A stretch of 64,000 nt of DNA from Neotamlana nanhaiensis (lineage in GTDB: Bacteria > Bacteroidota > Bacteroidia > Flavobacteriales > Flavobacteriaceae). The notes under the pieces were generated by a model. That model had not been told where the DNA came from and did no database searches. It saw only the letters and a list, made by a program, of their open reading frames with translations. The position numbers and the translations under genes were made by a program. Every line of letters starts with the position of its first letter. Within the stretch, counting starts at the first letter, position 1. This document shows positions 12,260-28,821 of this stretch, in pieces. The stretch is taken from positions 422,831-486,830 of the forward strand of contig NZ_JTDV01000002.1 in assembly GCF_000943555.1 (NCBI RefSeq), in the 5' to 3' direction.

Positions 12260-13528
12260 ATGAGTTATAGCATAGCAATAATAGGTTTAGGATATGTAGG
12301 ATTACCACTAGCCGTAGAATTTGCTAAAAAATATAAGGTTGTTGGTTTCGATATTAGTGAAAACCGAATAAACGCACTAAAAAATGCTAACGATAGCACC
12401 TTGGAAGTTGAAGAAAGTAATTTAAAAGAGGTTTTAAGTGATAATGAAAACGGGTTAATATTAACTACAAATCCAGATCATATAAAAGATTGCAATATTT
12501 ACATTGTAACCGTACCAACACCTGTTGATAAAAATAATAAGCCCGATTTTACACCGTTATTAAAGTCTTCTAAAGTGGTAGGAAGCGTTTTAAGACAGAA
12601 CGATATTGTAATTTACGAATCTACGGTATATCCTGGTGCAACCGAAGAAGTTTGTGTGCCAGTTTTAGAAGAAGAAAGTAAATTAACCTTTAACAAAGGT
12701 TTTTTCTGTGGCTATTCGCCCGAACGTATAAATCCGGGAGATAAAACACGAACTGTTACCAAAATTACTAAGGTAACTTCTGGATCTACGCCCGAAATTG
12801 GTAAAACAGTTGATGCACTTTATAAGTCTATTATAGAAGCTGGAACACATTTAGCCCCGAGCATAAAGGTTGCTGAAGCAGCCAAGGTTATTGAAAATGC
12901 GCAACGTGATATAAACATTGCCTTTGTAAACGAACTGGCTAAAATATTTAACCTTTTAAATATTGATACACATGATGTATTAGAAGCTGCGGCTACAAAA
13001 TGGAATTTTTTACATTATAAACCAGGTTTAGTTGGTGGCCATTGCATTGGTGTCGACCCGTTTTATTTGGCGCAAAAAGCTCTAGAGGTAGGTTATCATC
13101 CCGAAATAATTTTGGCTGGACGCCGATTAAACGATAGTATGGGCGAGTTTGTTGCTACCGAAGTATTAAAGCTTGCCGTAAAAAATAATATTGAAATTAA
13201 TACAGCTAAAGTGCTTATGTTGGGTATCACATTTAAAGAGAATTGCCCCGATATAAGAAACACAAAAGCAATTGATGTATATCGTGCTTTAAACGATTTT
13301 AATATGAATGTAGATGTTTACGACCCAAGAGCATCATTCGAAGAAGTTAAGGCCGAATACGGCATCGAATTAATTAAAAGCATCAATAAAACATACAATA
13401 TTATTGTACATTGTGTATCTCATAGTGATTTTGAAACCTTGAATTTTTCAGAAATTAGAAGTAAAAACTCGGTGTTTTACGATGTTAAAGGTACTTTAGA
13501 TGTTAATGTAATTGACAAACGACTTTAA
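12260..13528 (+). CDS. tviB: UDP-N-acetylglucosamine/galactosamine 6-dehydrogenase (TviB/WbpO type)
   Basis: NAD-dependent nucleotide-sugar dehydrogenase that oxidises C6 to a uronate. Residues 9-20 hold the GLGYVGLPLAVE dinucleotide loop; the catalytic Cys262 lies in VGGHCIGVDPFYL, and ITFKENCPDIRNTK marks the C-terminal domain. The CPDIRN and VGGHCIGVDPFYL variants are typical of the UDP-GlcNAc C6 dehydrogenases VipA/TviB rather than UDP-glucose dehydrogenase. Its pairing with the TviC-like gene 12 bases downstream supports synthesis of UDP-GalNAc-uronate, an acidic building block as in Vi antigen. Exact substrate is inferred. Confidence 0.85.
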   Translation: MSYSIAIIGLGYVGLPLAVEFAKKYKVVGFDISENRINALKNANDSTLEVEESNLKEVLSDNENGLILTTNPDHIKDCNIYIVTVPTPVDKNNKPDFTPLLKSSKVVGSVLRQNDIVIYESTVYPGATEEVCVPVLEEESKLTFNKGFFCGYSPERINPGDKTRTVTKITKVTSGSTPEIGKTVDALYKSIIEAGTHLAPSIKVAEAAKVIENAQRDINIAFVNELAKIFNLLNIDTHDVLEAAATKWNFLHYKPGLVGGHCIGVDPFYLAQKALEVGYHPEIILAGRRLNDSMGEFVATEVLKLAVKNNIEINTAKVLMLGITFKENCPDIRNTKAIDVYRALNDFNMNVDVYDPRASFEEVKAEYGIELIKSINKTYNIIVHCVSHSDFETLNFSEIRSKNSVFYDVKGTLDVNVIDKRL

Positions 13529-13540
13529 GCGGCTTTAAGA

Positions 13541-14524
13541 ATGTACGAAAACAAATATCACGAACAAGAATTAAGTCAATATACGTTTTTAGTAACTGGT
13601 GGTGCCGGATTTATTGGTTCTAACCTCGTAGAGTATTTGTTAAAATATAATGCAAAAAAGGTAGTAATTCTCGATAATCTTGAAACAGGGTTACTATCAA
13701 ATATCGAAAACTTCATAAAACAAGATAACTGTAGTTTTATTGAAGGCGATATACGTGATTTAGAAACCTGTCAAAACGCTGTAAATGGAGTCGATTTTAT
13801 TCTGCATCAGGCAGCATTAGGTTCGGTACCGCGTTCCATAAAAAATCCTATAAAAACTAACGAAGTAAATGTTACTGGTTTTTTAAATATGTTAATGGCG
13901 GCTATTTCATCATCGTCTTTATTAAAAATGGTATATGCTGCGTCTTCTAGTACGTATGGCGATCATCCAGGTTTGCCAAAAGTAGAAGATAAAATTGGGA
14001 ATCCGTTGTCGCCTTACGCGGTCACTAAGTATGTTAACGAACTTTATGCTGATGTGTTTAACAAAACTTACGATTTGCAAATTGCAGGCTTAAGGTATTT
14101 TAATGTTTTTGGTCCAAAACAACAACCAAATGGGGCATATGCGGCAGTTATTCCCTTGTTTTTTAAAGGCGCTTTAAACAACACGGCTGTAAAAATAAAT
14201 GGAGATGGCGAGCAAACCAGAGATTTTACGTATATTGAAAATGTTGTTCAAGCTAATATAAAAGCATTATTTTCAGAAGAAGAAACGCATGAGGTTTACA
14301 ATGTAGCATATGGCGAAAGAATAAGCATAAACAACCTATGGGAAACGATTAAAGAATTAACCAATTCTACTATTAACCCAGAATATGGACCAACCAGAGT
14401 GGGCGATGTAAAAAACTCACTTGCAAACATAAATAAGGCAGAAAAAGACATAAACTACAAACCCCAGTTTAATTTACAAACAGGGTTGAAACAATCTTTA
14501 AAATGGTATTTAGCAAACAAATAA
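13541..14524 (+). CDS. tviC: UDP-N-acetylglucosamine 4-epimerase-like SDR (TviC/WbpP type)
   Basis: Extended short-chain dehydrogenase that probably interconverts gluco and galacto forms of UDP-HexNAc or its uronate. It shows GGAGFIGSN (residues 20-28) after a roughly 14-residue N-terminal extension (ELSQYTFLVTGG) characteristic of the WbpP/VipB branch, AASSSTYGDHPGLPK, and the catalytic pair Tyr159/Lys163 in SPYAVTKYV; RYFNVFGPKQQPNGAYAAVIP is also typical. With the upstream dehydrogenase it forms a two-gene pathway to UDP-GalNAc-uronate. The next gene has its own promoter, so this ends the first transcriptional block. Confidence 0.87.
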   Translation: MYENKYHEQELSQYTFLVTGGAGFIGSNLVEYLLKYNAKKVVILDNLETGLLSNIENFIKQDNCSFIEGDIRDLETCQNAVNGVDFILHQAALGSVPRSIKNPIKTNEVNVTGFLNMLMAAISSSSLLKMVYAASSSTYGDHPGLPKVEDKIGNPLSPYAVTKYVNELYADVFNKTYDLQIAGLRYFNVFGPKQQPNGAYAAVIPLFFKGALNNTAVKINGDGEQTRDFTYIENVVQANIKALFSEEETHEVYNVAYGERISINNLWETIKELTNSTINPEYGPTRVGDVKNSLANINKAEKDINYKPQFNLQTGLKQSLKWYLANK

Positions 14525-14536
14525 AATTATAAAACG

Positions 14537-14566
14537 TTGTTAAAGTTACTAATTATGTTATTTTTG
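14537..14566 (+). promoter_or_regulatory. Bacteroidota-type promoter for the sulfation genes
   Basis: TTG (14537-14539), a 19-base spacer and TATTTTTG (14559-14566) match the Bacteroidota sigma-A consensus TTG-N19-TAnnTTTG closely. It sits 66 bases upstream of cysQ, in the only sizeable gap of this part of the locus, so the cysQ-to-cysN block may be transcribed separately from the rfb genes. Confidence 0.7.
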
Positions 14567-14631: not shown

Positions 14632-15435
14632 ATGTTAAAAAACCTACTCCTTGCTATTGAATCTTCCCTAAAAGCAGGTGAAGAAATCTTAAAAATTTAT
14701 AATAAAGATTTTAATATAGAATTCAAAGATGATAAGTCACCTTTAACGGAAGCCGATTTAGTTTCAAACGAAATAATAGTTAAAAAGCTTAAGGAAACTA
14801 ACATTCCAATAATTAGCGAAGAAAATAAAACAATTGATTTTGAAACCAGAAAAACTTGGTCGCAATGTTGGATTGTCGATCCTATTGATGGCACTAAAGA
14901 ATTCATAAAAAAGAATGGTGAGTTTACCGTAAATATAGCTTTGGTTGAAAATGGAAAAACAAAACTAGGTGTTATTTATGTACCCGTTACTAAAGAGCTT
15001 TATTACACTAATGAAGACCAAACTAAAGCATACAAAACTATAATTTCGACTCAAGATTTACCTGTAGAACCCTTGCTTTTTAAAGCTGAAGATGAAATAA
15101 ATAAAGCCGAACAAAATGCTTCAAATATTAAAGTAGTTGGTAGTCGCTCCCATATGAACGATGATACTCTAGATTTTGTTGAAAGCTTAAAAACTGAAGG
15201 ACAATCTGTTGAAATTGTATCAAAGGGCAGCTCTTTAAAATTCTGTTTGGTAGCAGAAGGAAAAGCACATGTGTATCCAAGATTTGCGCCAACCATGGAG
15301 TGGGACACTGCCGCAGGACAAGCGATTTGCGAAGCTGTTGGATTAACAGTGATAGACCAAACAACTAAACAGCCAATGACTTACAACAGAGAAAATTTAT
15401 TAAATAACTATTTTTTAGTTACAAATAATGGCTAA
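14632..15435 (+). CDS. cysQ: 3'(2'),5'-bisphosphate nucleotidase
   Basis: Hydrolyses 3'-phosphoadenosine 5'-phosphate (PAP), the inhibitory by-product of sulfotransferases, to AMP and phosphate. Lithium-sensitive phosphatase family: metal ligands in ISEEN (residues 61-65) and the DPIDGTKEF signature (83-91), plus WDTAAGQAI near the C-terminus with the third metal Asp. Length 267 agrees with CysQ. The end overlaps the DUF2061 gene by 8 bases. Grouping with PAPS-forming genes and a sulfotransferase supports a role in recycling for polysaccharide sulfation. Confidence 0.93.
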   Translation: MLKNLLLAIESSLKAGEEILKIYNKDFNIEFKDDKSPLTEADLVSNEIIVKKLKETNIPIISEENKTIDFETRKTWSQCWIVDPIDGTKEFIKKNGEFTVNIALVENGKTKLGVIYVPVTKELYYTNEDQTKAYKTIISTQDLPVEPLLFKAEDEINKAEQNASNIKVVGSRSHMNDDTLDFVESLKTEGQSVEIVSKGSSLKFCLVAEGKAHVYPRFAPTMEWDTAAGQAICEAVGLTVIDQTTKQPMTYNRENLLNNYFLVTNNG

Positions 15436-15886
15436 AAGTGTTTATAAAAGACATATAGCAAAGGCAATTACATGGCGTTTAGTAGGCACTATTGATACCA
15501 TTGTACTTTCTTGGATTATTTCTGGTAATCCACTTACGGGTTTAAAAATAGGAGCTTTTGAGGTGGTAACTAAAATGATTTTGTATTACTGCCACGAACA
15601 AGTTTGGTTTAAAATTAAAATTGAAGAAAGCAAAAAACGCCATCTTATTAAAACGGTTACGTGGCGATTAATTGGTACAATCGATACCATGATTTTAGCT
15701 TGGATAATATCAGGAAACCCTTTAACAGGCTTAAGTATTGGGCTTGCCGAAGTTTTAACTAAAATGGGCTTATATTATTTACACGAGCGTGCATGGTACA
15801 AAATTGATTTTGGATTAGATAAACGAAGACGATTAAAACGATGGAAAAAAACATCAAAAAACACGAGTATAAAATCGGGAAATTAG
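15428..15886 (+). CDS. Tandem DUF2061 small membrane protein
   Basis: A 152-residue protein made of two copies of the DUF2061 module. Each copy contains a HIAKAITWRLVGTIDT / HLIKTVTWRLIGTIDT core followed by WIISGNPLTGL and a VxTKMxLYYxHE segment ending in a Trp. Each module looks like two short membrane helices, so about four in all, with a basic C-terminal tail (KRRRLKRWKK). Molecular function is unknown. The gene overlaps cysQ by 8 bases and cysC by 46 bases, placing it firmly inside the PAPS operon; a role tied to sulfate or PAPS handling at the membrane is inference from context alone. Confidence 0.88.
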   Translation: MAKSVYKRHIAKAITWRLVGTIDTIVLSWIISGNPLTGLKIGAFEVVTKMILYYCHEQVWFKIKIEESKKRHLIKTVTWRLIGTIDTMILAWIISGNPLTGLSIGLAEVLTKMGLYYLHERAWYKIDFGLDKRRRLKRWKKTSKNTSIKSGN

Positions 15887-16437
15887 AGCGCCAACTGTTA
15901 AAAAAGCATAATTCTTTTTTAATATTTTTTACTGGATTATCAGGTTCGGGAAAGTCTACAATTGCAAATGCTCTTGAAGAAAAACTAAATAAACTAAGTG
16001 TACACACTTACACGCTCGATGGTGATAATATGCGTTTTGGATTAAATAAAGATTTAAGTTTTACACCCGAAGATCGTACCGAAAACATAAGACGTATAGG
16101 TGAAACAGCTAAGTTATTTATCGATGCAGGAGTTGTAACCTTAGCTGCATTTGTAGCACCGTACGAAAAAGACAGAAAAAACATAGAAGATACCGTAAAA
16201 TCTGATAACTTTGTTGAGGTTTTTGTAAACACAAGTTTAGAAGAATGCGAACGAAGAGACGTAAAAGGCTTATATAAGAAGGCGAGAGCGGGAGAAATTA
16301 AGAATATGACGGGTATTTCTGCCCCTTACGAAGCGCCGCAAAATCCAACAGTTGAGGTGTCGCATTTAAATACAATAGAAGAATCGGTTGAAATTATTTT
16401 TCAAGCCATTAAAAATAAATTAGAAATTAAAGAGTAA
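15841..16437 (+). CDS. cysC: Adenylylsulfate kinase
   Basis: Phosphorylates adenosine 5'-phosphosulfate (APS) to PAPS, the sulfate donor. P-loop GLSGSGKST at residues 32-40, the LDGDNMRFGLN APS-binding stretch, RTENIRRIGE and FVAPYEKDR are all diagnostic. The start is retained although it overlaps the DUF2061 gene by 46 bases, because about 30 residues before the P-loop is normal for CysC and no later Met gives a full domain. The last base is the first base of the cysD start codon, indicating coupled translation. Confidence 0.96.
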   Translation: MEKNIKKHEYKIGKLERQLLKKHNSFLIFFTGLSGSGKSTIANALEEKLNKLSVHTYTLDGDNMRFGLNKDLSFTPEDRTENIRRIGETAKLFIDAGVVTLAAFVAPYEKDRKNIEDTVKSDNFVEVFVNTSLEECERRDVKGLYKKARAGEIKNMTGISAPYEAPQNPTVEVSHLNTIEESVEIIFQAIKNKLEIKE

Positions 16438-17342
16438 TGAGTAAATATTATTTAAACTATTTAGACGAATTAGAATCTGAAGCGATTTTCGTTTTAAGAG
16501 AAGTTTGGGCACAGTTTCAAAACCCAGTAATATTATTTTCAGGAGGAAAGGATTCAATTGTAGTAACGCATTTAGCAAAAAAGGCGTTTTATCCTTCTAA
16601 AATACCATTTTCTTTAATGCATGTCGACACGGGACATAACTTTCCTGAAACGATTCAGTTTAGAGATGATTTAATAAAAGAATTAGGTGCGAACTTAATT
16701 GTAGGTTCGGTACAAGAATCAATTGATGAAGGGCGTGTAGCTGAAGAAAAAGGAAAAAACGCAACCCGTAACGCTTTACAAATCACGACACTTCTTGATG
16801 CTATTGAAGCCAATAAAGTAGATTGTGCAATAGGCGGTGGCCGTCGCGATGAAGAAAAGGCAAGAGCCAAAGAACGTTTCTTTTCGCACCGTGACGATTT
16901 TGGGCAATGGGATCCAAAAAACCAACGTCCAGAATTATGGAACATCTTTAACGGTAAATATTTCGAAGGTGAGCACTTTAGAGCTTTTCCAATTAGTAAC
17001 TGGACCGAAATGGATGTTTGGAACTACATAAAGCGTGAAAACCTTGCCATTCCATCGTTATATTTTGCTCACGAACGTGAAGTGGTTTGGAGACAAAATT
17101 CATGGATACCAAACTCTGAGTTTTTAGTTTTAGAAGATCATGAAGAGGTCGTAACCAAAAAAATAAGATTTAGGACTTTAGGTGATATTACGATTACTGG
17201 TGGTATAGAATCTGATGCCGATACGTTAGAAAAAATTGCAGATGAGGTTTCAACTATGCGTCAAACCGAACGCGGAAACCGTAGTGACGATAAACGCTCA
17301 GAATCGGCTATGGAAGACCGCAAACGTCAAGGGTATTTTTAA
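16437..17342 (+). CDS. cysD: Sulfate adenylyltransferase subunit 2
   Basis: Catalytic ATP-pyrophosphatase subunit of ATP sulfurylase, making APS from sulfate and ATP in complex with the GTPase CysN. The PP-loop FSGGKDS lies at residues 34-40; RRDEEKARAKER, NWTEMDVW and the C-terminal GYF end are conserved in CysD. Length 301 matches. It is followed by a 75-base gap with a dispersed repeat before cysN, unlike the otherwise overlapping junctions upstream. Confidence 0.97.
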   Translation: MSKYYLNYLDELESEAIFVLREVWAQFQNPVILFSGGKDSIVVTHLAKKAFYPSKIPFSLMHVDTGHNFPETIQFRDDLIKELGANLIVGSVQESIDEGRVAEEKGKNATRNALQITTLLDAIEANKVDCAIGGGRRDEEKARAKERFFSHRDDFGQWDPKNQRPELWNIFNGKYFEGEHFRAFPISNWTEMDVWNYIKRENLAIPSLYFAHEREVVWRQNSWIPNSEFLVLEDHEEVVTKKIRFRTLGDITITGGIESDADTLEKIADEVSTMRQTERGNRSDDKRSESAMEDRKRQGYF

Positions 17343-17366
17343 AAAATTATAAATAAAAATTGAAAG

Positions 17367-17395
17367 TGTCACCTTGAGCGCAGTCGAAAGGTCAT
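17367..17395. repeat. Short dispersed intergenic repeat
   Basis: The GTCACCTTGAGCGCAGTCGAAAGG-like motif between cysD and cysN belongs to a class of short repeats scattered through flavobacterial genomes (recognised from general knowledge). A diverged relative is at 63467-63500. It is non-coding, and no transposase is nearby. Confidence 0.55.
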
Positions 17396-17417
17396 TTTAA
17401 AAAATAAGCGAATAAAC

Positions 17418-18671
17418 ATGTTAGATAATAATCAATTATTACGTTTTACAACCGCAGGAAGTGTAGATGATGGAAAAAGTACCTTAATTGGTCGTTTGTT
17501 ATATGATTCTAAATCTATTTTTGAAGATCAATTAGAATCAATTGAAAATACAAGTAAACAAAAAGGACACGAAGGTGTAGATTTAGCGTTGTTTACTGAT
17601 GGTTTACGCGATGAACGCGAACAAGGAATCACCATTGACGTAGCCTACCGTTACTTTACAACACCAAAACGAAAGTTTATCATAGCCGATACTCCTGGGC
17701 ATATTCAATATACCAGAAACATGGTAACAGGAGCTTCAACAGCAAACGCTGCATTAATTTTGGTGGATGCACGCCATGGTGTAATCGAGCAAACCAGACG
17801 TCATGCTTTTATTGCTTCATTATTACAAATCCCTCACATTATTGTTTGTGTAAACAAAATGGATTTAGTCGATTTTAGTGAAGAAGCTTATAACAATGTG
17901 TTAAGTCAGTTTGAGGAGTTTTCATCTAAATTATTGGTAAAAGATGTGCGTTTTATACCAATGAGCGCGCTATTAGGAGATAATGTTGTAAACCGCAGCG
18001 AAAACATGAGTTGGTATCAAGGTGCGCCATTATTGCACACTTTAGAAACCATGCATATTAGTAGTGATGTAAATAAAGTAGATGCGCGTTTCCCTGTTCA
18101 AACCGTTTTAAGGCCGCAAAGAGAAGGTTTTATAGATTATAGAGGATATGCTGGTAGAATTGCAAGTGGTGTGTTTAGAAGAGGCGATGAGGTTACTGTA
18201 ATGCCTTCTGGATTTACAAGTAAAATAAAAACAATAGATTTTGATACAAAGGAACTTGATGAAGCTTTTGCGCCAATGTCGGTATCTATAACTCTAGAAG
18301 ATGATATAGATATTAGTCGTGGTGATATGTTAGTACGATCTAATAATAAGCCAGAGCCTTCTCAAGATGTTGAAGTTATGCTTTGTTGGTTAAACAATAC
18401 AGCTTCAAAGCCTAGAGCTAAGTATAGTGTTTTCCATACATCAAATCAGCAAAAAGCTATGATAAAGGATATCGTTTATAAAATTGATATTAATACTTTG
18501 CAGCGTAAAGAGGATGATGGTGAATTAAAAATGAACGAGATCGCAAAGGTTAAAATACGTACGACTAAGCCATTAATGATAGATTCTTATCGAGAAAACA
18601 GAACAACTGGAAGCATTATTTTGGTTGATGATGCCACTAATGAAACGGTGGCTGCTGGCATGGTGGTTTGA
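17418..18671 (+). CDS. cysN: Sulfate adenylyltransferase subunit 1 (GTPase)
   Basis: Regulatory GTPase subunit of ATP sulfurylase; GTP hydrolysis drives APS formation by CysD. Elongation-factor-like G motifs: GSVDDGKS (residues 14-21), DTPGH (91-95) and NKMD (146-149), followed by beta-barrel domains. At 417 residues it ends after the EF-Tu-like domains, so no CysC kinase is fused; the kinase is the separate gene upstream. The flippase gene starts 10 bases later, so the sulfate genes run straight into the polysaccharide assembly genes. Confidence 0.96.
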   Translation: MLDNNQLLRFTTAGSVDDGKSTLIGRLLYDSKSIFEDQLESIENTSKQKGHEGVDLALFTDGLRDEREQGITIDVAYRYFTTPKRKFIIADTPGHIQYTRNMVTGASTANAALILVDARHGVIEQTRRHAFIASLLQIPHIIVCVNKMDLVDFSEEAYNNVLSQFEEFSSKLLVKDVRFIPMSALLGDNVVNRSENMSWYQGAPLLHTLETMHISSDVNKVDARFPVQTVLRPQREGFIDYRGYAGRIASGVFRRGDEVTVMPSGFTSKIKTIDFDTKELDEAFAPMSVSITLEDDIDISRGDMLVRSNNKPEPSQDVEVMLCWLNNTASKPRAKYSVFHTSNQQKAMIKDIVYKIDINTLQRKEDDGELKMNEIAKVKIRTTKPLMIDSYRENRTTGSIILVDDATNETVAAGMVV

Positions 18672-18681
18672 TTTTAGTTAA

Positions 18682-19992
18682 ATGATAAAGCAGCTAAAAA
18701 ATAAACTAAAGCATTTAGATGAAAATACTATAGATGTTTTTAAAAAGTTTATACCTACAACTATGGTTAAAGTTGGAGGTGTTGTATTTGGTTTTCTTAT
18801 AAGTTTATATTTAGCAAATGTTTTAGGAGCTGATGGCTTAGGAGTAATAGAGTTGATGAACAAAATAACTGCAATTGTTATTGTTTTTTGTTTGTTAGGT
18901 GTTCGTCAACTTATTATTAAAGAAGTTGCCATTTCATATCTTAAAGATAACTGGGAACGCATAGGTTATTTTATTTATACATCTATAATTATTAGTGGAA
19001 CCATAACTTTTGTTGTAGCCCTAATTTTGGTGTTTTCAGCATCTTTTATTTCTACTGCATTTAGCATTTCAGAATTAAGAACCCCTTTGGTTATTGGTTC
19101 AATAGTAATGGTGTTTCAGGTTGTTTCTCAAATTTTGTCATCAGGAATTATTGGCTTAAAAAGAATATGGCAAGGAAGCTTAATTGACCAAACATTAAGC
19201 CTCGTATTAATTGGAGTACTTCTATTAGCATTTTATGTTTTTAAAATAAATATTGATATTGTAGCTACAGCTATTATTTATGCGATTAGTAGAATAATCG
19301 TTTTAATTTGTGCTAGTATTTATTGGAAAAATATATTTTTAAACAAATCATATAATTTAAATTTTGATTTTAAACTAGTTAAAAAAAGTTTGCCATTTTT
19401 ATTATTGGCAGCTACTGGAATTATTGCTTCGAATATAGATAGTATAATGCTAGGGTGGTTGTCTACAGCAAAAAATGTAGGTCTTTATGCTATCGCTTTT
19501 AGATTGGCATTTTTATCTGTTTTTTTTCTAAATATTACCAATGCAGCACTTTCTCCAAAAATAGCAGAAATGTATGCAAATAATAAACTTAAAGAGTTGA
19601 ACAAAATGGTACAAAATGTTACGTTAGGCTTGTGGTTTGTGGCTTTAATTCCTTTAATAATATTTGTTTTTTTTGGAGAGTATTTATTAGTATTATGGGG
19701 AGAAGAGTTTAGATACGCCTATTGGCCGCTAATAATTTTGAGTATTGGTCAATTATTTAATATAGGAACGGGAGCTGCAGGTTTAACTTTAGTAATGTGT
19801 GGCTTCGAGAAAATACAAGCATATATTTCAATGGGTGTTATTTTTTTAAATACTATTTTAAACTATTTTTTTATCATTTCTTTTGATGTTACTGGTGCAG
19901 CAATAGCAACAACAATAACTTTAGCAATTGGTAATATAGCAAAGCTTATCTTTGCAAAACATAAAACAGGAGTATATACTTTGCCAATTTAA
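18682..19992 (+). CDS. Wzx-type oligosaccharide flippase
   Basis: Predicted polytopic membrane protein of the polysaccharide transporter (MOP/MVF) superfamily, expected to flip undecaprenyl-linked repeat units across the inner membrane. About twelve hydrophobic segments in 436 residues; the first includes KVGGVVFGFLISLYLANVLGADGLG, shaped like the GxxLxxxLGxxxfG start of flippases. Position after cysN and before glycosyltransferase and sulfotransferase genes supports a role in export of the repeat unit made here. A second, only distantly similar flippase is at 60137. Substrate unknown. Confidence 0.85.
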   Translation: MIKQLKNKLKHLDENTIDVFKKFIPTTMVKVGGVVFGFLISLYLANVLGADGLGVIELMNKITAIVIVFCLLGVRQLIIKEVAISYLKDNWERIGYFIYTSIIISGTITFVVALILVFSASFISTAFSISELRTPLVIGSIVMVFQVVSQILSSGIIGLKRIWQGSLIDQTLSLVLIGVLLLAFYVFKINIDIVATAIIYAISRIIVLICASIYWKNIFLNKSYNLNFDFKLVKKSLPFLLLAATGIIASNIDSIMLGWLSTAKNVGLYAIAFRLAFLSVFFLNITNAALSPKIAEMYANNKLKELNKMVQNVTLGLWFVALIPLIIFVFFGEYLLVLWGEEFRYAYWPLIILSIGQLFNIGTGAAGLTLVMCGFEKIQAYISMGVIFLNTILNYFFIISFDVTGAAIATTITLAIGNIAKLIFAKHKTGVYTLPI

Positions 19993-20002
19993 GTCGTAAA
20001 TT

Positions 20003-20755
20003 ATGATAACACAAGGTGTGATTTATATAGCAAATGGTGATAAATTTATTAATGAAGCCATAGCATCTGCAAAAAGTTTAAAACAGCATAACTCTAACTT
20101 ATCTGTTACGTTATTTTCAAATAAAAAGGTTGGAACAGAATATTTTGACAAACAAATATTAATTGAAAACCCAGGGTATAGAGATAAAGTTTATTACTTA
20201 GAAAAGTCGCCTTATGAACGCACTCTTTTTCTTGATACAGATACCTTTGTATGTGATAATATTGATGAGTTGTTTTTTTTATTAAACCATTTCGATATAG
20301 CTCTTGCTCATGCCCCAATGAGATTAGCCCAAGATTATAAACCGATTTTAAGCCATTTAAATCAGCAAAAAATTACACGTGCTTATCCAGAGTTTAACAC
20401 AGGTGTTATTTTGTATAAAAATGGCGCTCATTTTAAAGCGATGATGAAACATTGCCAAGAGCTTTATAATAGTTATTCAGAAAACGGAAAATTAAAGTTG
20501 CCAGATCAAATTGTTTTTCGAGAAGCGATTTATTACTCAAAATTAAAATTAGCTACACTTACGCCAGAGTATAATTGCCGTTCGTTGTTTTATACATATG
20601 TTGAAGGTACCGTTAAAATTTTACATGATAGAAGAAAAAACATGTATAAATGGGCAAAAAAAGTAAATAAAAGTAAATTTCCTAGAATAATTATTCCTGG
20701 AATTGGGTGTATAACACAAAAAAGTATATGGTTTAAATTAATTAGTAAATTATAA
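20003..20755 (+). CDS. Glycosyltransferase of GT-A fold (GT8-like)
   Basis: Probable cytoplasmic glycosyltransferase acting on the lipid-linked repeat unit. Motifs: YERTLFLDTDTFVCD near residue 75, giving the metal-binding DxD, FNTGVILYK (the NTG segment seen in GT8/glycogenin-like enzymes) near 132, DQIVFREAIYY (Asp-Gln pair) near 165, and VKILHDR with a late His that often ligates the metal. No transmembrane helix. Donor and acceptor are not predictable from sequence. It lies between the flippase (10 bases) and the sulfotransferase (2 bases). Confidence 0.72.
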   Translation: MITQGVIYIANGDKFINEAIASAKSLKQHNSNLSVTLFSNKKVGTEYFDKQILIENPGYRDKVYYLEKSPYERTLFLDTDTFVCDNIDELFFLLNHFDIALAHAPMRLAQDYKPILSHLNQQKITRAYPEFNTGVILYKNGAHFKAMMKHCQELYNSYSENGKLKLPDQIVFREAIYYSKLKLATLTPEYNCRSLFYTYVEGTVKILHDRRKNMYKWAKKVNKSKFPRIIIPGIGCITQKSIWFKLISKL

Positions 20756-20757
20756 TA

Positions 20758-21720
20758 ATGAAATCGCCAATATTTATTTTTTCTTTACCTAGAAGCGGAT
20801 CAACCTTGCTACAAAGACTTTTAATGGCACATAAGTCAATTAGCAGTGTGTCAGAACCTTGGATTCTCTTGCCATATATTTATTCAACAAAACAACACGG
20901 TGTGATATCAGAATATTCAAGTATTAATTCGTATACTGGAGTTTCAGATTTTATTAATAATTTACCTAATTCAGAGAAGGATTATAAGGGGGCTTTAAGA
21001 AATTTTGTTTTAGAGTTATATGAAAAGCAATGTAGAAAGAATGAAGTTTATTTTTTAGATAAAACTCCTCGTTATTATCTTGTTATAAATGAGATAGTTG
21101 AATTGTTTCCAGATGCAAAATTTATATTTCTTTTTAGAAACCCAGTTCAAGTTTACGCTTCAATTATAAATACTTTCGCCGATAATAAACTTCAATATTT
21201 TAATACTCAAGAGGATGTTATTGATGGGATGGAATTATTAAGTGAAGGTTATAACAGGCATAAGCAAAATGCTATTTTTGTAAATTATGAAAGTTTAACT
21301 GAAAATTCGGAAGTTGAATTAAGTAAAATTTTTGAATATTTAGAGTTAACCCCAGATTTCGACGTTTTAAGCAATTTTAGTTCGCAAAATACAAAAGGTC
21401 GATTTGGAGACCCTACAGGTGTTAAAGAGTATAACCAAATCTCCTCAAAAAGTATTGATAAATGGAAAAAAACTTTTAATAACCCTGTTCGAAAAAGACA
21501 CCTTCTAAAAACAATAAATAGTATATCTTCTGAAACTTTAAATATTCAAGGTTATAATAAAGCACAACTTTTAACCGAGATAAAGTCCATTAAGGTGAAT
21601 TTAAAAGGAATAGTTTTGGATTTTAAAGATTTGATTTTTAGTTATTTAGTAAGAAGGTTTAAATTGAACTTATTTTTTGCTAAAACTTTAAAATGGACTA
21701 ATAAAAAATTCCTTAATTAA
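20758..21720 (+). CDS. PAPS-dependent sulfotransferase
   Basis: Transfers sulfate from PAPS, most likely to a sugar hydroxyl of the polysaccharide. The 5'-phosphosulfate-binding loop LPRSGSTLL is at residues 10-18 and the 3'-phosphate-binding FRNPVQVYAS at 126-135 (with Arg and Ser as expected); DKTPRYY at 101-107 is typical of bacterial sulfotransferase family 3. A C-terminal hydrophobic/basic stretch might associate with membrane. It lies in the same run as cysQ/C/D/N, so donor supply, transfer and PAP removal are all encoded within 7 kb. The exact acceptor is unknown. Confidence 0.9.
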   Translation: MKSPIFIFSLPRSGSTLLQRLLMAHKSISSVSEPWILLPYIYSTKQHGVISEYSSINSYTGVSDFINNLPNSEKDYKGALRNFVLELYEKQCRKNEVYFLDKTPRYYLVINEIVELFPDAKFIFLFRNPVQVYASIINTFADNKLQYFNTQEDVIDGMELLSEGYNRHKQNAIFVNYESLTENSEVELSKIFEYLELTPDFDVLSNFSSQNTKGRFGDPTGVKEYNQISSKSIDKWKKTFNNPVRKRHLLKTINSISSETLNIQGYNKAQLLTEIKSIKVNLKGIVLDFKDLIFSYLVRRFKLNLFFAKTLKWTNKKFLN

Positions 21721-21729
21721 AATTAGAAT

Positions 21730-22539
21730 ATGTTTTTTTCTGTTATTACAGCTACTTACAACTCGCAAAAAACCGTAAAAGGAACTTTTGACTCATTGTT
21801 AAATCAAACCTATACTGATGTTTTTGAATACATTGTGATAGATGGTAATTCTCAAGACTCTACAATTGATATTATAAAAAATTATGAGTCAAAGTTTAAG
21901 GAAAAAAACATAAATTTTAAATGGATAAGCGAGCCAGATACTGGAGTTTATAATGCCTGGAATAAGGGGTTAAAAATGACCTCTGGAAGTTACATCGCTT
22001 TTATAGGGTCAGATGATAGGTTCTTACCAGATGCGCTTAGCTTGTACCATCAAAAAATTAGTACTAATTTAAATTATGATTATTATTGCTCTAAAGTGAA
22101 AATAGTAGACAATAATATACCTATATCTGCTTATGTTATTGCATATTGTAAAAGAAATGGCATGATAAAAAGTTTACCACACGTAGGTTCTTTTCATAAT
22201 TCAAAGCTCTTTAAAAGTGTAGGCCATTTTAATGAAGAGTATAAAATTGTTGGAGATTATGAGCTCTTGCTAAGACCCAAAACGCAATTAAAAGTGTATT
22301 CTTTTGATTATTTTACAACCGAAATGGAAATAGGAGGTATTAGTAATAACCCTAAATTTGTAAAGAAAACTTTATTAGAGTTAAAAAGAGCTAGAATTGA
22401 AACAGGAGGATTTTCTATATTTTATGCTAATATGCTTTATTATAATCATTTTTTAAGAATAAAATACGTAGCTTTTGCAAAACGAATTTTAGGAGTAAAT
22501 TTTTCAACTAAAATTAATAAGTACTTTAAAAAGTTTTAA
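21730..22539 (+). CDS. Family 2 glycosyltransferase
   Basis: GT-A fold glycosyltransferase: N-terminal FSVITATYNSQKTVKGTFDSL, the VIDGNSQDSTIDII segment with DG(N/S)S, EPDTGVYNAWNKGLKM, and FIGSDDRF carrying the metal-binding Asp pair. The EPDxGxYDAMNKG-like motif is typical of WcaA/colanic-acid type enzymes. Length 269 is normal. It is the last gene before the IS256 relic and the reverse-strand acyltransferase that interrupt the plus-strand operon. Confidence 0.9.
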   Translation: MFFSVITATYNSQKTVKGTFDSLLNQTYTDVFEYIVIDGNSQDSTIDIIKNYESKFKEKNINFKWISEPDTGVYNAWNKGLKMTSGSYIAFIGSDDRFLPDALSLYHQKISTNLNYDYYCSKVKIVDNNIPISAYVIAYCKRNGMIKSLPHVGSFHNSKLFKSVGHFNEEYKIVGDYELLLRPKTQLKVYSFDYFTTEMEIGGISNNPKFVKKTLLELKRARIETGGFSIFYANMLYYNHFLRIKYVAFAKRILGVNFSTKINKYFKKF

Positions 22540-22848: not shown

Positions 22849-25347
22849 TTAATTTATAATAATATTTTTAAAAGCTAATGCTAAAACCCTCCTATCTTTA
22901 CTATTTCGAGGCTGCATAGGATTAGAATATTCAAATCTTAAAGTATTCTTAGTCATATTATTCAAACTTTTAGGTGTAAAATATAGAGTAAGTTTTTTAT
23001 TTCTTCCTGATATATTGTTATTATAAATTATAGAATCGTTTAATAAAATTTTGACTACTTGTTTACCTAAAACATCATGATTTATTTCAATTGTTCCTTT
23101 AAACTTTTTCTTATCTTTTATATTAAAAATTAGTTCTGAATAATTATCGCAACTCCATCTGTGCTTTGCCTCTGGGCCATACCAATTTTTGAATTTTAAT
23201 TTTTTAGAATTGTGATTAATAATTTGATTAGGTTCTATAAAATTTGATTCTGAGGAATTATTAGTATCAATATCAACTATATTAATATTATTACCTGTAG
23301 AATTAGTAGCAGATTTATTAATAAATTTCAATAATTTTTTTTCAATTGACTTAATTACTTTTAATGATCCTAATTTCGACAAATGGTCTTTGTCTGAAAA
23401 ATAAATTTCCCCATTTTCTTGTTCAATACACATATTATCTTCACAAAAAACATCCGAAGGATTAATAAAATGAATATTAGTAAATTTATTAAAATAATCT
23501 CTAAAATATGAATTTATAGCAAATGAGTGTGCTGAAGGAGTAAAATACGATTGTGGATTCATATTAGAAAAATATTTCGGCACTAATAAGTTGTCAACAT
23601 AACTTAAATCATGTTTACTTTTAAAGGGATTTTCTCCAATAATTATAATATCTCTTTTACTTAATATTTTACTAAATTGCACTATTTTTTCACAAAGTTC
23701 TTTATATCCAGTTGAATCAATTTTAAAATTTTCATAGCTATTTGTTTTACTATTTTTCACCTTTGTACTCGCCATTTCACCATTCCAAAAATGACTTATA
23801 AACACAGGCGTTTTAGGATTACTATTTATTAATCTAATTAGGCTATTTAAGTGACTTTTAGTTTTAGTAGAATCGATCCGTTTATGAATTATATCTGGTA
23901 AGTGTAGAGTAGATATTTTATAACTCATAAAGGTCTTCTTTTTATGTTTTTTAACCATAATAGAATCTAATCCAAAGCTATAATGACCAGCGTGACTATC
24001 TCCCATCCATATCATATCTATAGAATTTCTTTTTTCTAATTTCCCTAAAAAACCATATTTTTCATAACCCGCTGCTCCCCAATTTTTTATTTGATATTTT
24101 TTAGGGTCTTCAAACAATTTTAAATTTTCGATTTTTTTATTATCAACTCTCCAAACCCATCCATCACTATTAATTACACTAGTTTTAATATTAGAAATGA
24201 TTATGATACATAAGAGTATTAAACTTATTAATCCATGATTAGAAATTAGTAAAGGTTTATTTTTATATGCTCTTAATGGAGTCTCAAAATAATTATAAAC
24301 AATGTAAGAAATTAGAAACATAGCTAACAATAATAGAATATTTTCTATTACCGTGAATTCAAAACCATAAATAAAGGAATAGAAGACTATTATTGGCCAA
24401 TGAAACAAATAGAGTGTATAACTTATTTTTCCTGTAATTTTAAATATATTTAAATTATAAATTTTAGAAATAAACTCATTTGGCTCATTGCATATAAAAA
24501 GTGCAGCGCCTATACAAGGAAATAAATTAAGAGTACTCATATACTCTGTCTCAGAACTAAAACAAAATACAGATATTATTATAATAACTAACCCTAATAA
24601 GTTTAAATAATTTTTTAAAATTTTTCCTTTAAAGGATATGAAAACTAATAAACCACCTATTACAAACTCAAAAACTCTAAAAGGTAAGAAAAAAAATTGT
24701 AGAGATATTAAGCTATCAGAAAAATTGGGGTCACTTATAAAATAACCTATAAATTTTTCGGAAATATAGCCTTCAGAAGAAATAAAATTAAAAATTAAGC
24801 TCAATAAAAATATTGTAACTAAAGCGAAAATAATGTATTTAGCTTTCTTTAATATTTTAAATAATAACAAAAACGTTAGTGGATAAAACAAATAGAATTG
24901 TTCTTCTATTGCTAAAGACCAAGTATGTAATAATGGTTTTAGATTTGCACTAACATCAAAATAATTAGTTTGGCTTAAAAAATAGAAATTAGAAGCCGCA
25001 AAAGATGAAAAAAACATTGACTCTATAAGTCCGGTAAACAATGAAGGGGGAAAAATTAAAAACCCAAGAATGAATGTAAACAAAAACATTAAAAACAATG
25101 AAGGAATTAATCTTCTTATCCTTCTTATGTAGAAGTTTTTTAAATTGAATTTACCTGTATGTAAAAGTTCTTTATTTATATTTCGGGTTATTAAAAAACC
25201 ACTAATTACAAAAAACACATCGACTCCTAGAAAGCCTCCAGGTATTAAAGGATTCCCTAGGTGAAATAATATCACAAAAATTACTGAGATTGCTCTTAAA
25301 AAATCAATATGCTCAATATAATCTGAATTTTTTGTCATGCTAATCAT
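22849..25347 (-). CDS. Acyltransferase 3 (OafA/YrhL type) with SGNH domain and extra C-terminal domain
   Basis: Predicted O-acyltransferase that adds acetyl or similar groups to surface glycans. Residues 1-390 form the polytopic acyltransferase-3 domain with His29 in FVILFHLG and GFLGVDVFFVISGFLIT; a loop and a periplasmic SGNH hydrolase-like domain follow with GDSH at 449-452 and the paired DKDH at 652-655. Residues 717-832 form an additional predicted beta-rich domain starting NWYGPE...HRWS and ending RRVLALAFKN, not part of the standard OafA plan. It is on the opposite strand to its neighbours, very AT-rich, and flanked by two IS256 relics, which suggests acquisition by insertion. Confidence 0.9.
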   Translation of the reverse strand: MISMTKNSDYIEHIDFLRAISVIFVILFHLGNPLIPGGFLGVDVFFVISGFLITRNINKELLHTGKFNLKNFYIRRIRRLIPSLFLMFLFTFILGFLIFPPSLFTGLIESMFFSSFAASNFYFLSQTNYFDVSANLKPLLHTWSLAIEEQFYLFYPLTFLLLFKILKKAKYIIFALVTIFLLSLIFNFISSEGYISEKFIGYFISDPNFSDSLISLQFFFLPFRVFEFVIGGLLVFISFKGKILKNYLNLLGLVIIIISVFCFSSETEYMSTLNLFPCIGAALFICNEPNEFISKIYNLNIFKITGKISYTLYLFHWPIIVFYSFIYGFEFTVIENILLLLAMFLISYIVYNYFETPLRAYKNKPLLISNHGLISLILLCIIIISNIKTSVINSDGWVWRVDNKKIENLKLFEDPKKYQIKNWGAAGYEKYGFLGKLEKRNSIDMIWMGDSHAGHYSFGLDSIMVKKHKKKTFMSYKISTLHLPDIIHKRIDSTKTKSHLNSLIRLINSNPKTPVFISHFWNGEMASTKVKNSKTNSYENFKIDSTGYKELCEKIVQFSKILSKRDIIIIGENPFKSKHDLSYVDNLLVPKYFSNMNPQSYFTPSAHSFAINSYFRDYFNKFTNIHFINPSDVFCEDNMCIEQENGEIYFSDKDHLSKLGSLKVIKSIEKKLLKFINKSATNSTGNNINIVDIDTNNSSESNFIEPNQIINHNSKKLKFKNWYGPEAKHRWSCDNYSELIFNIKDKKKFKGTIEINHDVLGKQVVKILLNDSIIYNNNISGRNKKLTLYFTPKSLNNMTKNTLRFEYSNPMQPRNSKDRRVLALAFKNIIIN

Positions 25348-26302: not shown

Positions 26303-27580
26303 ATGAAAATTAAGGTTATAGTAATTTTCTCCTTGTTTATTTTTTTCCTTCCATTTACTCAGGCACTTACGTTGAATGTTGGTTTTCCTTTAAAGATGTC
26401 AGAATTATTTTTATTTGGTTTGATTTTTATTTTTTTAGGTAAAAAAGTAAAATTATCTGCCTTTAAAAATGTTAATAGAATAAGTTTATTAATTGTTTTA
26501 TTTTTGATTTGGGCTATTCTTTCTTTTGTAATTAATATAGCCTGGAAGTATGATTATCCTTTAAAGGAGTTTCCTTTTAGAATTAATGCTCTTGGAGACA
26601 GTTTATTAAGGGTGTTTTACATTGTTTTAAATTTTTTAGCTTTTTTTATAAGTGTTCATTTTTTTAAAAACAGGTCATATTTGCTAAAATATTGGGTTTA
26701 TGGTGCGATTTTAGCAAGTATTTATGCATGGTATTTATTTATATCTTCCAGTTTAAACTTACCTTATTTTAAGCTTTATGGAATGCAAGAATCACCTCAA
26801 AATTTAAATGGAATAATACGATGTGGAACATTTAGAGAAGGGAATTATTTTGGGTTATTTTTATTGCTTTCTGGGGCTATTTCTTTTTATTTAAAAAAGA
26901 ACAAAACAGGCATTTTTCTATTACTCACAATTATAACAACTTTTTCTACTATAAGTATATTTAGTGCTTTTGTTTTTTTAATTTTTACGCAACGAAGGAA
27001 GTTTTTTAGAAAGTCTGTTTTTTATAAAATATTACTTCTTATACCCATAGTTTTCATTTGTTTTCTAGTATTTATTAATTCATCGTACTATGAAAAATAC
27101 ATAGACTCGAAGTTAAGTTCTCCATCAAATGTTTTAACATCCGAAAGTTTTTCTAAAAACGATAGAACACTTACAGCTAGAATTGGTTATTTTCAAGGTA
27201 TTAATAATCCTTTTTTTGGAGTTGGACCCTATAATTATGGATTGCACTATGATGAATATAACGATTTTGAAGAATATTTTTTAAATAATAATGAATGGTC
27301 ATTAGAGTTTTACCAAAGAAAAAATAAACGTGCCATACCAAATAATGTTTACATTGAAGTTTTGGCCGAATATGGCATAGTTGGGTTTATAATATTTGTT
27401 TGTATTTTACTTAAAATTTTACAGGTTGCATTCAAAAATAAATCTGATTTGATAACAGGAAGTTTAATAGGCATTTTTATTTCGTTTAATGCATTCCCTT
27501 CTTTTATAATGTTGTTTGTTTGGGTGTTTTTTGCCATTCCTATCGCTATGCAAGCCACTAAGAATAATGAGTTAATATGA
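26303..27580 (+). CDS. O-antigen polymerase/ligase-like membrane protein 1
   Basis: Polytopic inner-membrane protein with about ten to eleven helices. The central CGTFREGNYFGLFLLLSGA segment and the periplasmic loop with FFGVGPYNYG (about residues 306-315) match the Wzy_C/O-antigen ligase superfamily, whose members polymerise repeat units or ligate polymer to lipid A core. Wzy and WaaL cannot be told apart by sequence alone. The start is 100 bases after IS relic 2, so the upstream part of the operon has been separated from it. It overlaps the next gene by 4 bases. Confidence 0.8.
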   Translation: MKIKVIVIFSLFIFFLPFTQALTLNVGFPLKMSELFLFGLIFIFLGKKVKLSAFKNVNRISLLIVLFLIWAILSFVINIAWKYDYPLKEFPFRINALGDSLLRVFYIVLNFLAFFISVHFFKNRSYLLKYWVYGAILASIYAWYLFISSSLNLPYFKLYGMQESPQNLNGIIRCGTFREGNYFGLFLLLSGAISFYLKKNKTGIFLLLTIITTFSTISIFSAFVFLIFTQRRKFFRKSVFYKILLLIPIVFICFLVFINSSYYEKYIDSKLSSPSNVLTSESFSKNDRTLTARIGYFQGINNPFFGVGPYNYGLHYDEYNDFEEYFLNNNEWSLEFYQRKNKRAIPNNVYIEVLAEYGIVGFIIFVCILLKILQVAFKNKSDLITGSLIGIFISFNAFPSFIMLFVWVFFAIPIAMQATKNNELI

Positions 27581-28821
27581 TGTTAAATAAAACTCAAATT
27601 AAGTTACAACACATTAATAGTTTACTTTACCTAGTAGCTATGTTACCTCTGTTTTCTTTAAAAATGGTGAGTATTTCTATAATAATTTTTTTAGTTACTG
27701 CGTTATTTAATTTTTTTCATAGAAAAGAAAAATTGGAGTCGATCAACTATAAATATATTCTTCTTTTTGCTGCACCTTTTTTCTTAAATATTTTAGCTTT
27801 ATTATACACTAATAATTATCAAATTTCTTTAAAAATTCTCGAAAAAAATTTAGCGATAATAATTTTTCCTGTAGTATTTTTTTTTCTTAAGCCTTTTTAT
27901 AGGAATAGTCAATTTATTCGATTTATACAGGTGTATATTCTGTCGTGTTTTGCAATGGTTGTATTTTCAATTATTTACGTTCTTGTTAATGTTTCAAATA
28001 TTGTTGTAAATAATACTAATAATAACAATTACCAATCAGTCGTTAAACTTAGAGAGTCTTTAGATCTTGTACCTATAATTGGGGAACATACAATTTATTA
28101 TTCCTTATTAGTTGGGGTTGGTTTATTGCTTCTTTATTACAATAGATTTAAGAGTATTATATTAAATATATTGCTTTACGTTTTTTTTGTACTAGGGTTA
28201 TTATTGGCAAGCTCAAAAGGCGTAATATTAGCACTTATTTTGGTGTCAATTTGTGTTATTTTTCAAAAGAATAAAAATGTCAAAAGATCTAGTTTAGTTA
28301 CAGTTGTTTTCCTTGTCGGAATTTCCCTTTTAGGTTATTTTTCACCATTAAAAGTTCGAATCGAATCGTTTTTTAAAAACAAACATTTTTATCCTACAGG
28401 AATACATTATAATTCAGTTAATATTCGTAATGCTATTTATAGTTGTTCATTTTCATTAATTGATGATGCTGGGCTTTTTGGGTTTTCACCAGGAGATACA
28501 CAAGTAAAATTAAATGAATGTTACAAACAATTCGATACTGTAGCATTTCAGAAAAAATCTTATAATACACATAATCAATACCTTGATTATTTACTTTCAT
28601 TTGGATTTGTAGGCTTGTTTATTATGCTTTTTGTATATTTTCAATATTTGAAAATAGCTTTAAAAGCTAATAATAGATTTTATTTAAATTTTTTAATATT
28701 TTTTTACATTGCATTTTTAACTGAAAATATTTTAGCAAGAAATACAGGTATTATTTTGTTTAATTTATTTAATTGTTTAATGGGGTATCGAGTGTTAATT
28801 TTAAAAGAAACCTATGAATAG
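27577..28821 (+). CDS. O-antigen polymerase/ligase-like membrane protein 2
   Basis: Second multi-pass protein of the same superfamily, directly after and overlapping the first by 4 bases. Features: roughly eleven hydrophobic segments in 414 residues, HTIYYSLLVGVGLLLLYY (start of the conserved region), LLASSKGVILALI, and the loop AGLFGFSPGD...YNTHNQYLDY, where NTHNQYL is the usual O-antigen ligase motif. A plausible division of labour is one polymerase and one ligase. Two ATG codons in tandem at 27577 and 27580 could each start translation; the end overlaps the next glycosyltransferase by 8 bases. Confidence 0.8.
   Translation: MMLNKTQIKLQHINSLLYLVAMLPLFSLKMVSISIIIFLVTALFNFFHRKEKLESINYKYILLFAAPFFLNILALLYTNNYQISLKILEKNLAIIIFPVVFFFLKPFYRNSQFIRFIQVYILSCFAMVVFSIIYVLVNVSNIVVNNTNNNNYQSVVKLRESLDLVPIIGEHTIYYSLLVGVGLLLLYYNRFKSIILNILLYVFFVLGLLLASSKGVILALILVSICVIFQKNKNVKRSSLVTVVFLVGISLLGYFSPLKVRIESFFKNKHFYPTGIHYNSVNIRNAIYSCSFSLIDDAGLFGFSPGDTQVKLNECYKQFDTVAFQKKSYNTHNQYLDYLLSFGFVGLFIMLFVYFQYLKIALKANNRFYLNFLIFFYIAFLTENILARNTGIILFNLFNCLMGYRVLILKETYE

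Follow-up and report, generated by a model that had tools for sequence, protein, structure and literature searches.

Glycan loci that combine genes for 3'-phosphoadenosine 5'-phosphosulfate (PAPS) synthesis with sulfotransferases are already known, and they frame the cassette analysed here, which occupies positions 14632-21720 of a 64,000-nucleotide stretch of Neotamlana nanhaiensis DNA (the window; contig NZ_JTDV01000002.1, positions 422,831 to 486,830) and encodes sulfate activation enzymes, a DUF2061 membrane protein, and a sulfotransferase. The capsule cluster of Cobetia marina KMM 1449 carries cysN/cysC, cysD, cysQ, a sulfotransferase gene, and dTDP-rhamnose genes, and a sulfated structure has been established (PMC11766843). 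Two other reports describe a sulfated capsule locus with PAPS genes and sulfotransferases in Vibrio sp. KMM 8419 (PMC11641403) and, in Bacteroides, a PAPS cluster (BT_0411-BT_0416) that adjoins a cholesterol sulfotransferase, with BT_0412 proposed as a sulfate importer (PMC9417993). An earlier note, made from the window sequence alone, had called sulfated polysaccharides of this kind rarely characterised in bacteria, which is fair, although such loci have been published with solved sulfated structures (PMC11641403, PMC11766843).

Like the Cobetia cluster, the window holds PAPS, cysQ, sulfotransferase, and rhamnose genes in one glycan cluster. However, the Cobetia set includes a sulfate permease gene and a bifunctional cysN/cysC, and its capsule system is of the ABC-transporter kind (PMC11766843), whereas the window has separate cysC and cysN genes, a Wzx-type flippase, a DUF2061 gene, and no permease in the run. 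The Vibrio cassette is a second copy (PMC11641403), in contrast to the window cassette, which is the only one found in its genome. The Bacteroides cluster is similar in being a set of Bacteroidota PAPS genes beside a sulfotransferase (PMC9417993), but the window differs from it in its glycan setting, its DUF2061 gene, and the lack of an importer gene in the run. The variation here is a probably shared PAPS source, the only one found in the genome, with a DUF2061 partner. A further likeness is seen in Mesorhizobium, where all five plasmids matching DUF2061 carry the order sulfotransferase-DUF2061-cysD-cysN beside nodulation genes. In four of these records the order is taken from the annotation, and in the fifth, which is unannotated, it was worked out here. 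The DUF2061 gene there lies between the sulfotransferase gene and cysD and is single-domain, CysN is fused to an APS (adenosine 5'-phosphosulfate) kinase in the one plasmid examined, the phylum is different, and the neighbours are Nod-factor instead of surface-glycan genes. We take these nodulation sulfation genes to be nodH, nodP, and nodQ.

All seven genes named in the earlier note are intact, lie on the plus strand, and follow the order it gave, with spacing from overlap up to 75 bp. The run opens with cysQ (14632-15435; TIGR01331, 263.8 bits against a cut-off of 228.8), encoding the phosphatase for 3'-phosphoadenosine 5'-phosphate (PAP), and continues with the APS kinase gene cysC (15841-16437; TIGR00455, 235.8 against 138.7) and the ATP sulfurylase genes cysD (small subunit, 16437-17342; TIGR02039, 406.6 against 396.6) and cysN (GTPase subunit, 17418-18671; TIGR02034, 552.9 against 336.1). 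It leads closely into genes for a Wzx-type flippase (18682-19992; PF01943, 74.3 bits), a GT8-type glycosyltransferase (20003-20755; PF01501, 37.2 against 24.3), and a sulfotransferase of the Sulfotransfer_3 family (20758-21720; PF13469, 107.4 against 27; PF00685, 48.6 bits). The family models agree with the names given to these genes and support the view that a single surface-polysaccharide locus encodes enzymes for making PAPS and removing PAP along with a sulfotransferase. The earlier reader had missed a further gene, at 15428-15886 on the plus strand, which shares 8 bp with cysQ and 46 bp with cysC. It encodes a 152-residue tandem DUF2061 membrane protein of two 2-helix units (PF09834, two domains, 142.1 bits against a cut-off of 23.1).

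The earlier note had further described the module as self-contained and dedicated to sulfation, not assimilation, on the ground that the window holds no PAPS reductase, sulfite reductase, or sulfate permease. We indeed observed that no genome match to CysH, sulfite reductase, SulP, or SLC13 falls inside the window, and all of them occur elsewhere in the genome. The assembly of this bacterium, which belongs to a largely marine family, comprises 4.02 Mb and is rated 100% complete with 4.24% contamination. A PF01507 search returned two proteins, the window CysD and a CysH on contig C36. APS kinase was found once, as the window cysC, and full-length CysN once; six other CysN matches are partial, 29-36% identical, and appear to be translation-type GTPases. 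No Sat-type ATP sulfurylase was found in the genome search, nor was a separate CysDN or Sat for assimilation of the kind that accompanies a second-copy sulfation cassette. On C36, CysH adjoins a 697-residue sulfite reductase together with siroheme genes, cysE, cysK, and methionine genes (named, apart from CysH and the reductase, by sequence reading). This reduction cluster has no cysDN, which is on contig C10, so that cysH and sulfite reductase are not adjacent to cysDN. CysH has 208 residues and two cysteines only, C63 and C203, the latter in ECGIH. An ECGIH cysteine without extra cysteine pairs, as seen in this CysH, marks the PAPS-reductase type, which has no iron-sulfur site of the APS-reductase kind; the protein also scores higher with the PAPS-reductase model TIGR02057 (113.3 bits) than with the APS-reductase model TIGR02055 (53.5 bits), both below cut-off.

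Since CysD, CysC, and full-length CysN were found nowhere in the genome but in the window, and no Sat was found, any assimilation that starts from sulfate has to draw on the cassette, to judge from the assembly. The genome-wide search for cysH, sulfite reductase, and a second cysDN that the earlier note had proposed returned the reduction genes and no second cysDN, the outcome that it had named as speaking against itself, and its picture of a dedicated unit is contradicted. We consider it quite probable that the PAPS unit of the window, the only one found in the genome, is shared by glycan sulfation and cysteine synthesis, with the DUF2061 protein as its probable dock or feeder. This unit belongs to the part of the surface-glycan locus that stays constant; in such an arrangement, CysDN would make APS and CysC would turn APS into PAPS. 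The sulfotransferase, encoded in the variable part, would move sulfate from PAPS onto a glycan residue, while CysH from the other contig would reduce PAPS to sulfite for cysteine, and CysQ would clear PAP from both uses. The DUF2061 protein, encoded between cysQ and cysC and with both termini probably cytoplasmic, would dock CysDN/CysC or feed sulfate at the membrane. Sulfation genes in a glycan locus are therefore not equivalent to a dedicated pathway, however natural that inference is. One PAPS pool seems to serve both glycan sulfation and cysteine synthesis, so that sulfur starvation and surface charge could be coupled.

Comparison of the four genomes of the genus revealed a common frame of NAMPT-like, Wzz-like, rml, tviBC, cysQ, DUF2061, cysC, cysD, and cysN genes, followed after cysN in all four loci by a variable middle and then by an aminotransferase and epimerase block. 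Each genome has one CysD-type and one CysH-type match, and in three of them PF01507 additionally gives a weak match of 20-34 bits to a frame of 444-454 residues. Directly after cysN, the congener G001 has a candidate sulfotransferase, which we call probable. It seems that PAPS supply is constant within the genus and that sulfation varies with the strain, judging from these gene contents. The variable glycan part of two congeners also contains nitroreductase-family genes (L098:13398-14444 and L099:13052-14128).

The N. nanhaiensis sulfotransferase carries LPRSGST near its N terminus and FIFLFRNPVQVYAS further along, which we take to be the two PAPS motifs. Among chains of solved structure, it is closest to two entries for polyketide-synthase/CurM sulfotransferases and to protein-tyrosine sulfotransferases (E-values 1e-6 to 1e-5). 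With this clear local sulfotransferase, sulfation of the glycan remains likely. A second sulfotransferase of the genome lies outside the window, on contig C6 (L106:7286-8044; PF00685, 51 bits), and starts with KGGTSAL.

The comparison beyond the genus covered 46 relatives, a hand-picked subset, mostly of long contigs, of the genomes behind 80 named CysD loci. PF01507 frames of at least 295 residues, plus one of 263 residues in G033, were called CysD and the rest CysH; 95 of 108 rows were used, 13 rows with frames of 380-519 residues and 20-40 bits being left out. It could be argued that the cassette is dedicated to glycan sulfation, with CysH idle or supplied from elsewhere. It lies in the glycan locus, apart from cysH, in all four genomes of the genus, and 9 of the 46 relatives have CysD without a CysH match, namely four Aequorivita strains, Marinirhabdus gelatinilytica, Phaeocystidibacter luteus, two metagenome-assembled genomes (MAGs), and one record of a Winogradskyella isolate, probably a single-cell genome. 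Nevertheless, no other source of APS or PAPS was found in N. nanhaiensis, yet its reduction cluster is apparently intact, which makes this alternative quite unlikely; the plain form given in the earlier note was rejected because CysH and sulfite reductase are present while no second CysDN or Sat was found. Conversely, the cassette might serve chiefly for assimilation and be located in the glycan locus by chance, its sulfotransferase acting elsewhere or rarely, as could be suggested by the two of four genus loci without a detected sulfotransferase and by the 31 of 46 relatives in which CysH accompanies exactly one CysD (six relatives carry at least two CysD). However, sulfotransferases cluster near CysD: of the 46 genomes, 20 have a PF13469 match over cut-off no more than 30 kb away from a CysD (1.9 expected), and 14 have one no more than 10 kb away (0.7 expected), where the expected numbers assume uniform placement. 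These counts rest on 115 of 137 PF13469 rows, after removal of those below cut-off and of second pieces where a frame was matched twice. Moreover, the CysD-only relatives comprise six strain genomes as well as three others, 8 of the 9 have a PF13469 match somewhere, and cysQ belongs to the run. In Lutibacter, Arenibacter, and Xanthovirga, one CysD adjoins CysH, and these three CysD form a separate clade (Shimodaira-Hasegawa-like approximate likelihood ratio test, SH-aLRT, 99), apart from which the window CysD falls among 86 others, united by a branch with SH-aLRT 89; this is a quick tree with SH-aLRT support only, in which every CysD of the 80 loci was labelled as cassette regardless of its neighbours and the program flagged long branches separating the assimilation clade from the plasmid outgroup. 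We consider an assimilation unit placed by chance rather unlikely. Most simply, one would infer that a CysDN of the sulfation type came to be the sole one in this lineage.

Several observations nevertheless count against a pool shared by sulfation and cysteine synthesis. Both CysH and sulfite reductase score below the NCBIfam curated cut-offs, and at 4.24% contamination C36 could in principle be foreign, yet CysH is present in all three congeners too. The G001 sulfotransferase falls just under both Pfam cut-offs (PF13469, 26.9 against 27; PF00685, 21.5 against 22), and the match of our own profile to it is circular, since this protein is among the four with which that profile was seeded (from the window, L097, L106, and L141), whose own matches carry no information; the profile has matches in the fetched flank of 21 of 80 CysD loci. 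It detected no sulfotransferase in the approximately 28 kb after cysN in G002 and G003, the congeners not having been searched genome-wide, and this pattern suggests that the cassette can persist without a clear local sulfotransferase. In 26 of the 46 relatives, no PF13469 match over cut-off lies within 30 kb of CysD. Aequorivita aquimaris (L042) has CysD and neither a CysH nor a PF13469 match, so that a third use of PAPS or another sulfotransferase family is possible. Finally, the cassette and reduction genes are not always apart: at L078 (Cyclobacteriaceae), alone among the 80 cassette loci, the flank contains a CysH-like gene. This MAG protein (L078:16401-17141), which flanks a cysC-cysD-cysN-cysQ cassette, has CC and CxxC pairs, as in APS reductases.

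The distribution of DUF2061 was examined in 50 genomes, the 46 relatives plus the four of the genus, which yielded 52 DUF2061 genes in 41 genomes when tandem domains were merged. These genomes were picked for CysD, not DUF2061, and belong mostly to one family, so that the 52 copies are not independent events. DUF2061 lies within 3 kb of CysD in 43 of the 52 and within 1.5 kb of CysH in 6, together 49. The other three are found in Galbibacter (L142) between a MetY-like gene and sulfite reductase, in Lutimonas (L143) beside methionine genes, and in Winogradskyella aurantia (L141) in a second locus of glycan type, with a sulfotransferase approximately 5 kb away. Among the 52, one copy is broken (G048) and one is a short frame (61 residues, G033). 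The broken copy, with three stops, lies beside CysH in Winogradskyella sediminis (G048:C1:93135-93257), whose cassette has an intact tandem copy.

Outside Bacteroidota, 20 plasmid records match DUF2061. Three Microvirga plasmids from two strains encode CysN with a C-terminal DUF2061 domain (60.0 to 71.1 bits, approximately residues 464-515), alongside cysH-like and MetY-like genes in two of the three. In Gemmatirosa, a 243-residue DUF2061-CysC fusion (59.6 and 185.4 bits) is encoded between cysQ and cysD. Within Bacteroidota, a separate DUF2061-CysC fusion (76.2 and 225.7 bits) is present in Roseivirga spongicola. Fusions to CysC or CysN are therefore spread across Bacteroidota, Gemmatimonadota, and Alphaproteobacteria, and gene order and fusions in three phyla give DUF2061 a specific link to sulfate activation.

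Alignment of 42 cassette DUF2061 proteins revealed 22 invariant positions, including the charged R8, K12, R17, D23, E45, K49, and H56. The AlphaFold model (mean predicted local distance difference test score 88.2, predicted template modelling score 0.72) consists of four long helices and a C-terminal helix, and Foldseek against PDB gave no match at an E-value of 0.001 or better; a PDB sequence search was likewise unproductive. Positive charges gather at the helix ends distal to the short loops, and both termini are therefore probably cytoplasmic, which fits fusion to the cytosolic CysC and CysN. It is likely that the protein is a membrane dock or a sulfate feeder for CysDN/CysC; a plain tether and an anion conduit are both compatible with these data.

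PF09834 was the sole Pfam match at an E-value of 0.001, and the protein did not fall into the SLC13 or SulP families. Sulfate may well have other ways into the cell, since the genome also encodes two proteins of the SulP family and two of the SLC13/CitMHS type, and on that basis we rejected DUF2061 as the only possible importer. Within 6 kb of CysD, DUF2061 was found in 45 of the 80 loci, SLC13 in 10, and both in none (Fisher p 1e-4, a value confounded by lineage); the 45 leave out L057, which has two cassettes and for which the other CysD was taken, and L080, whose fusion was scored as CysC. In 7 of the 10 loci, SLC13 has the orientation of cysD; in the remaining 3 (L020, L066, and L088), it is on the opposite strand and hence outside the cys run. 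Neptunitalea (L020 and L066) provides a within-family case, with SLC13 present and no DUF2061 match in the genome. We tentatively propose, as a possibility that falls just short of probable, that DUF2061 is an unrecognised membrane component of bacterial sulfate activation, a small unit of two helices bearing conserved charges, which would dock or be fused to APS kinase or ATP sulfurylase, feed them sulfate, serve sulfation when with CysC and assimilation when with CysH, and stand near cysC in place of the SLC13 permease of other lineages. In a search of the open-access literature for DUF2061, COG3205, or PF09834, the passages in PMC3751524, PMC12632274, and PMC12442407 concern iron or stress and make no link to sulfur. 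The connection to sulfate activation is what looks new here.

Alternatively, DUF2061 might be a hitch-hiking membrane protein of unrelated function, retained by operon inertia in Flavobacteriaceae. The dominance of one family in the sample would allow this, and several findings weigh against a role in sulfate activation: 9 of the 50 Bacteroidota genomes with the cassette have no DUF2061; in one Bradyrhizobium and ten haloarchaeal plasmids, the 4-6 kb retrieved to either side of DUF2061 yielded no cysC, cysD, cysN, or cysH; a phage record shows none of these genes nearby; and 8 of 9 viral contigs with DUF2061 gave no phmmer match to the cys queries. The ninth (L125) has a weak APS-kinase-like P-loop neighbour at 33 bits, for which AAA_33 scores higher. 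However, operon inertia does not readily account for the DUF2061 genes beside CysH in separate loci, for their position between sulfotransferase and cysDN in Mesorhizobium, or for the fusions in three phyla, and we regard a mere hitch-hiker as unlikely. Taken together, these distributions imply that DUF2061 overall is not a sulfur family and that one subset of it is tightly tied to sulfate activation.

Cassette composition varies among the loci compared. In Salegentibacter agarivorans (L057:1-13107), two tandem cysQ-cysC-cysD sets flank tviC- and tviB-like genes, with DUF2061 in the second set only. The Robiginitalea aestuariiviva cassette (L056) consists of cysQ, DUF2061, cysD, and cysN, and no cysC was found in the fetched flank.

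Upstream of the N. nanhaiensis cassette are rmlB-, rmlA-, rmlC-, and rmlD-like genes (named by sequence reading), followed on the plus strand by genes for a TviB-like UDP-sugar dehydrogenase of the uronate type (12260-13528) and a TviC-like UDP-sugar epimerase (13541-14524). Both proteins miss the Vi-type equivalog cut-offs (NF011729 TviB, 513.3 against 592 bits; NF011728 TviC, 343 against 760 bits), and the dehydrogenase exceeds that of the general nucleotide-sugar dehydrogenase model (TIGR03026, 381.8 against 189.8). These genes point to rhamnose and uronate in the glycan. A GT2 glycosyltransferase gene (21730-22539, plus strand; PF00535, 83.9 bits) directly follows the sulfotransferase gene, and the downstream part encodes glycosyltransferases, two initiating sugar transferases, a DegT aminotransferase, an epimerase-family protein, and two adjacent Wzy_C (O-antigen ligase/polymerase) proteins (26303-27580 and 27577-28821), of which one may be a polymerase and the other a ligase. 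With two Wzy_C proteins and two initiating sugar transferases, the content is compatible with either an exopolysaccharide or a lipopolysaccharide O-antigen.

The earlier note had placed the run under a "good promoter". A predicted promoter-like site, TTG-N19-TATTTTTG, precedes cysQ on the plus strand at 14537-14566, in a 108-bp gap, and is close to what we take to be the Bacteroidetes promoter consensus. When a spacer of 18-21 was allowed, none of 300 base shuffles of the gap matched a site of this TTG type, which has four matches on the plus strand of the 64 kb. However, the stricter TTTG form has no match in the gap, and its 2 matches in the window fall below the 7.7 of shuffles; a scan for sigma-70 type promoters gave a result no better than chance. 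Within the otherwise plus-strand glycan stretch, a single inverted gene at 22849-25347 on the minus strand encodes an acyltransferase fused to an SGNH domain (PF01757 and PF19040).

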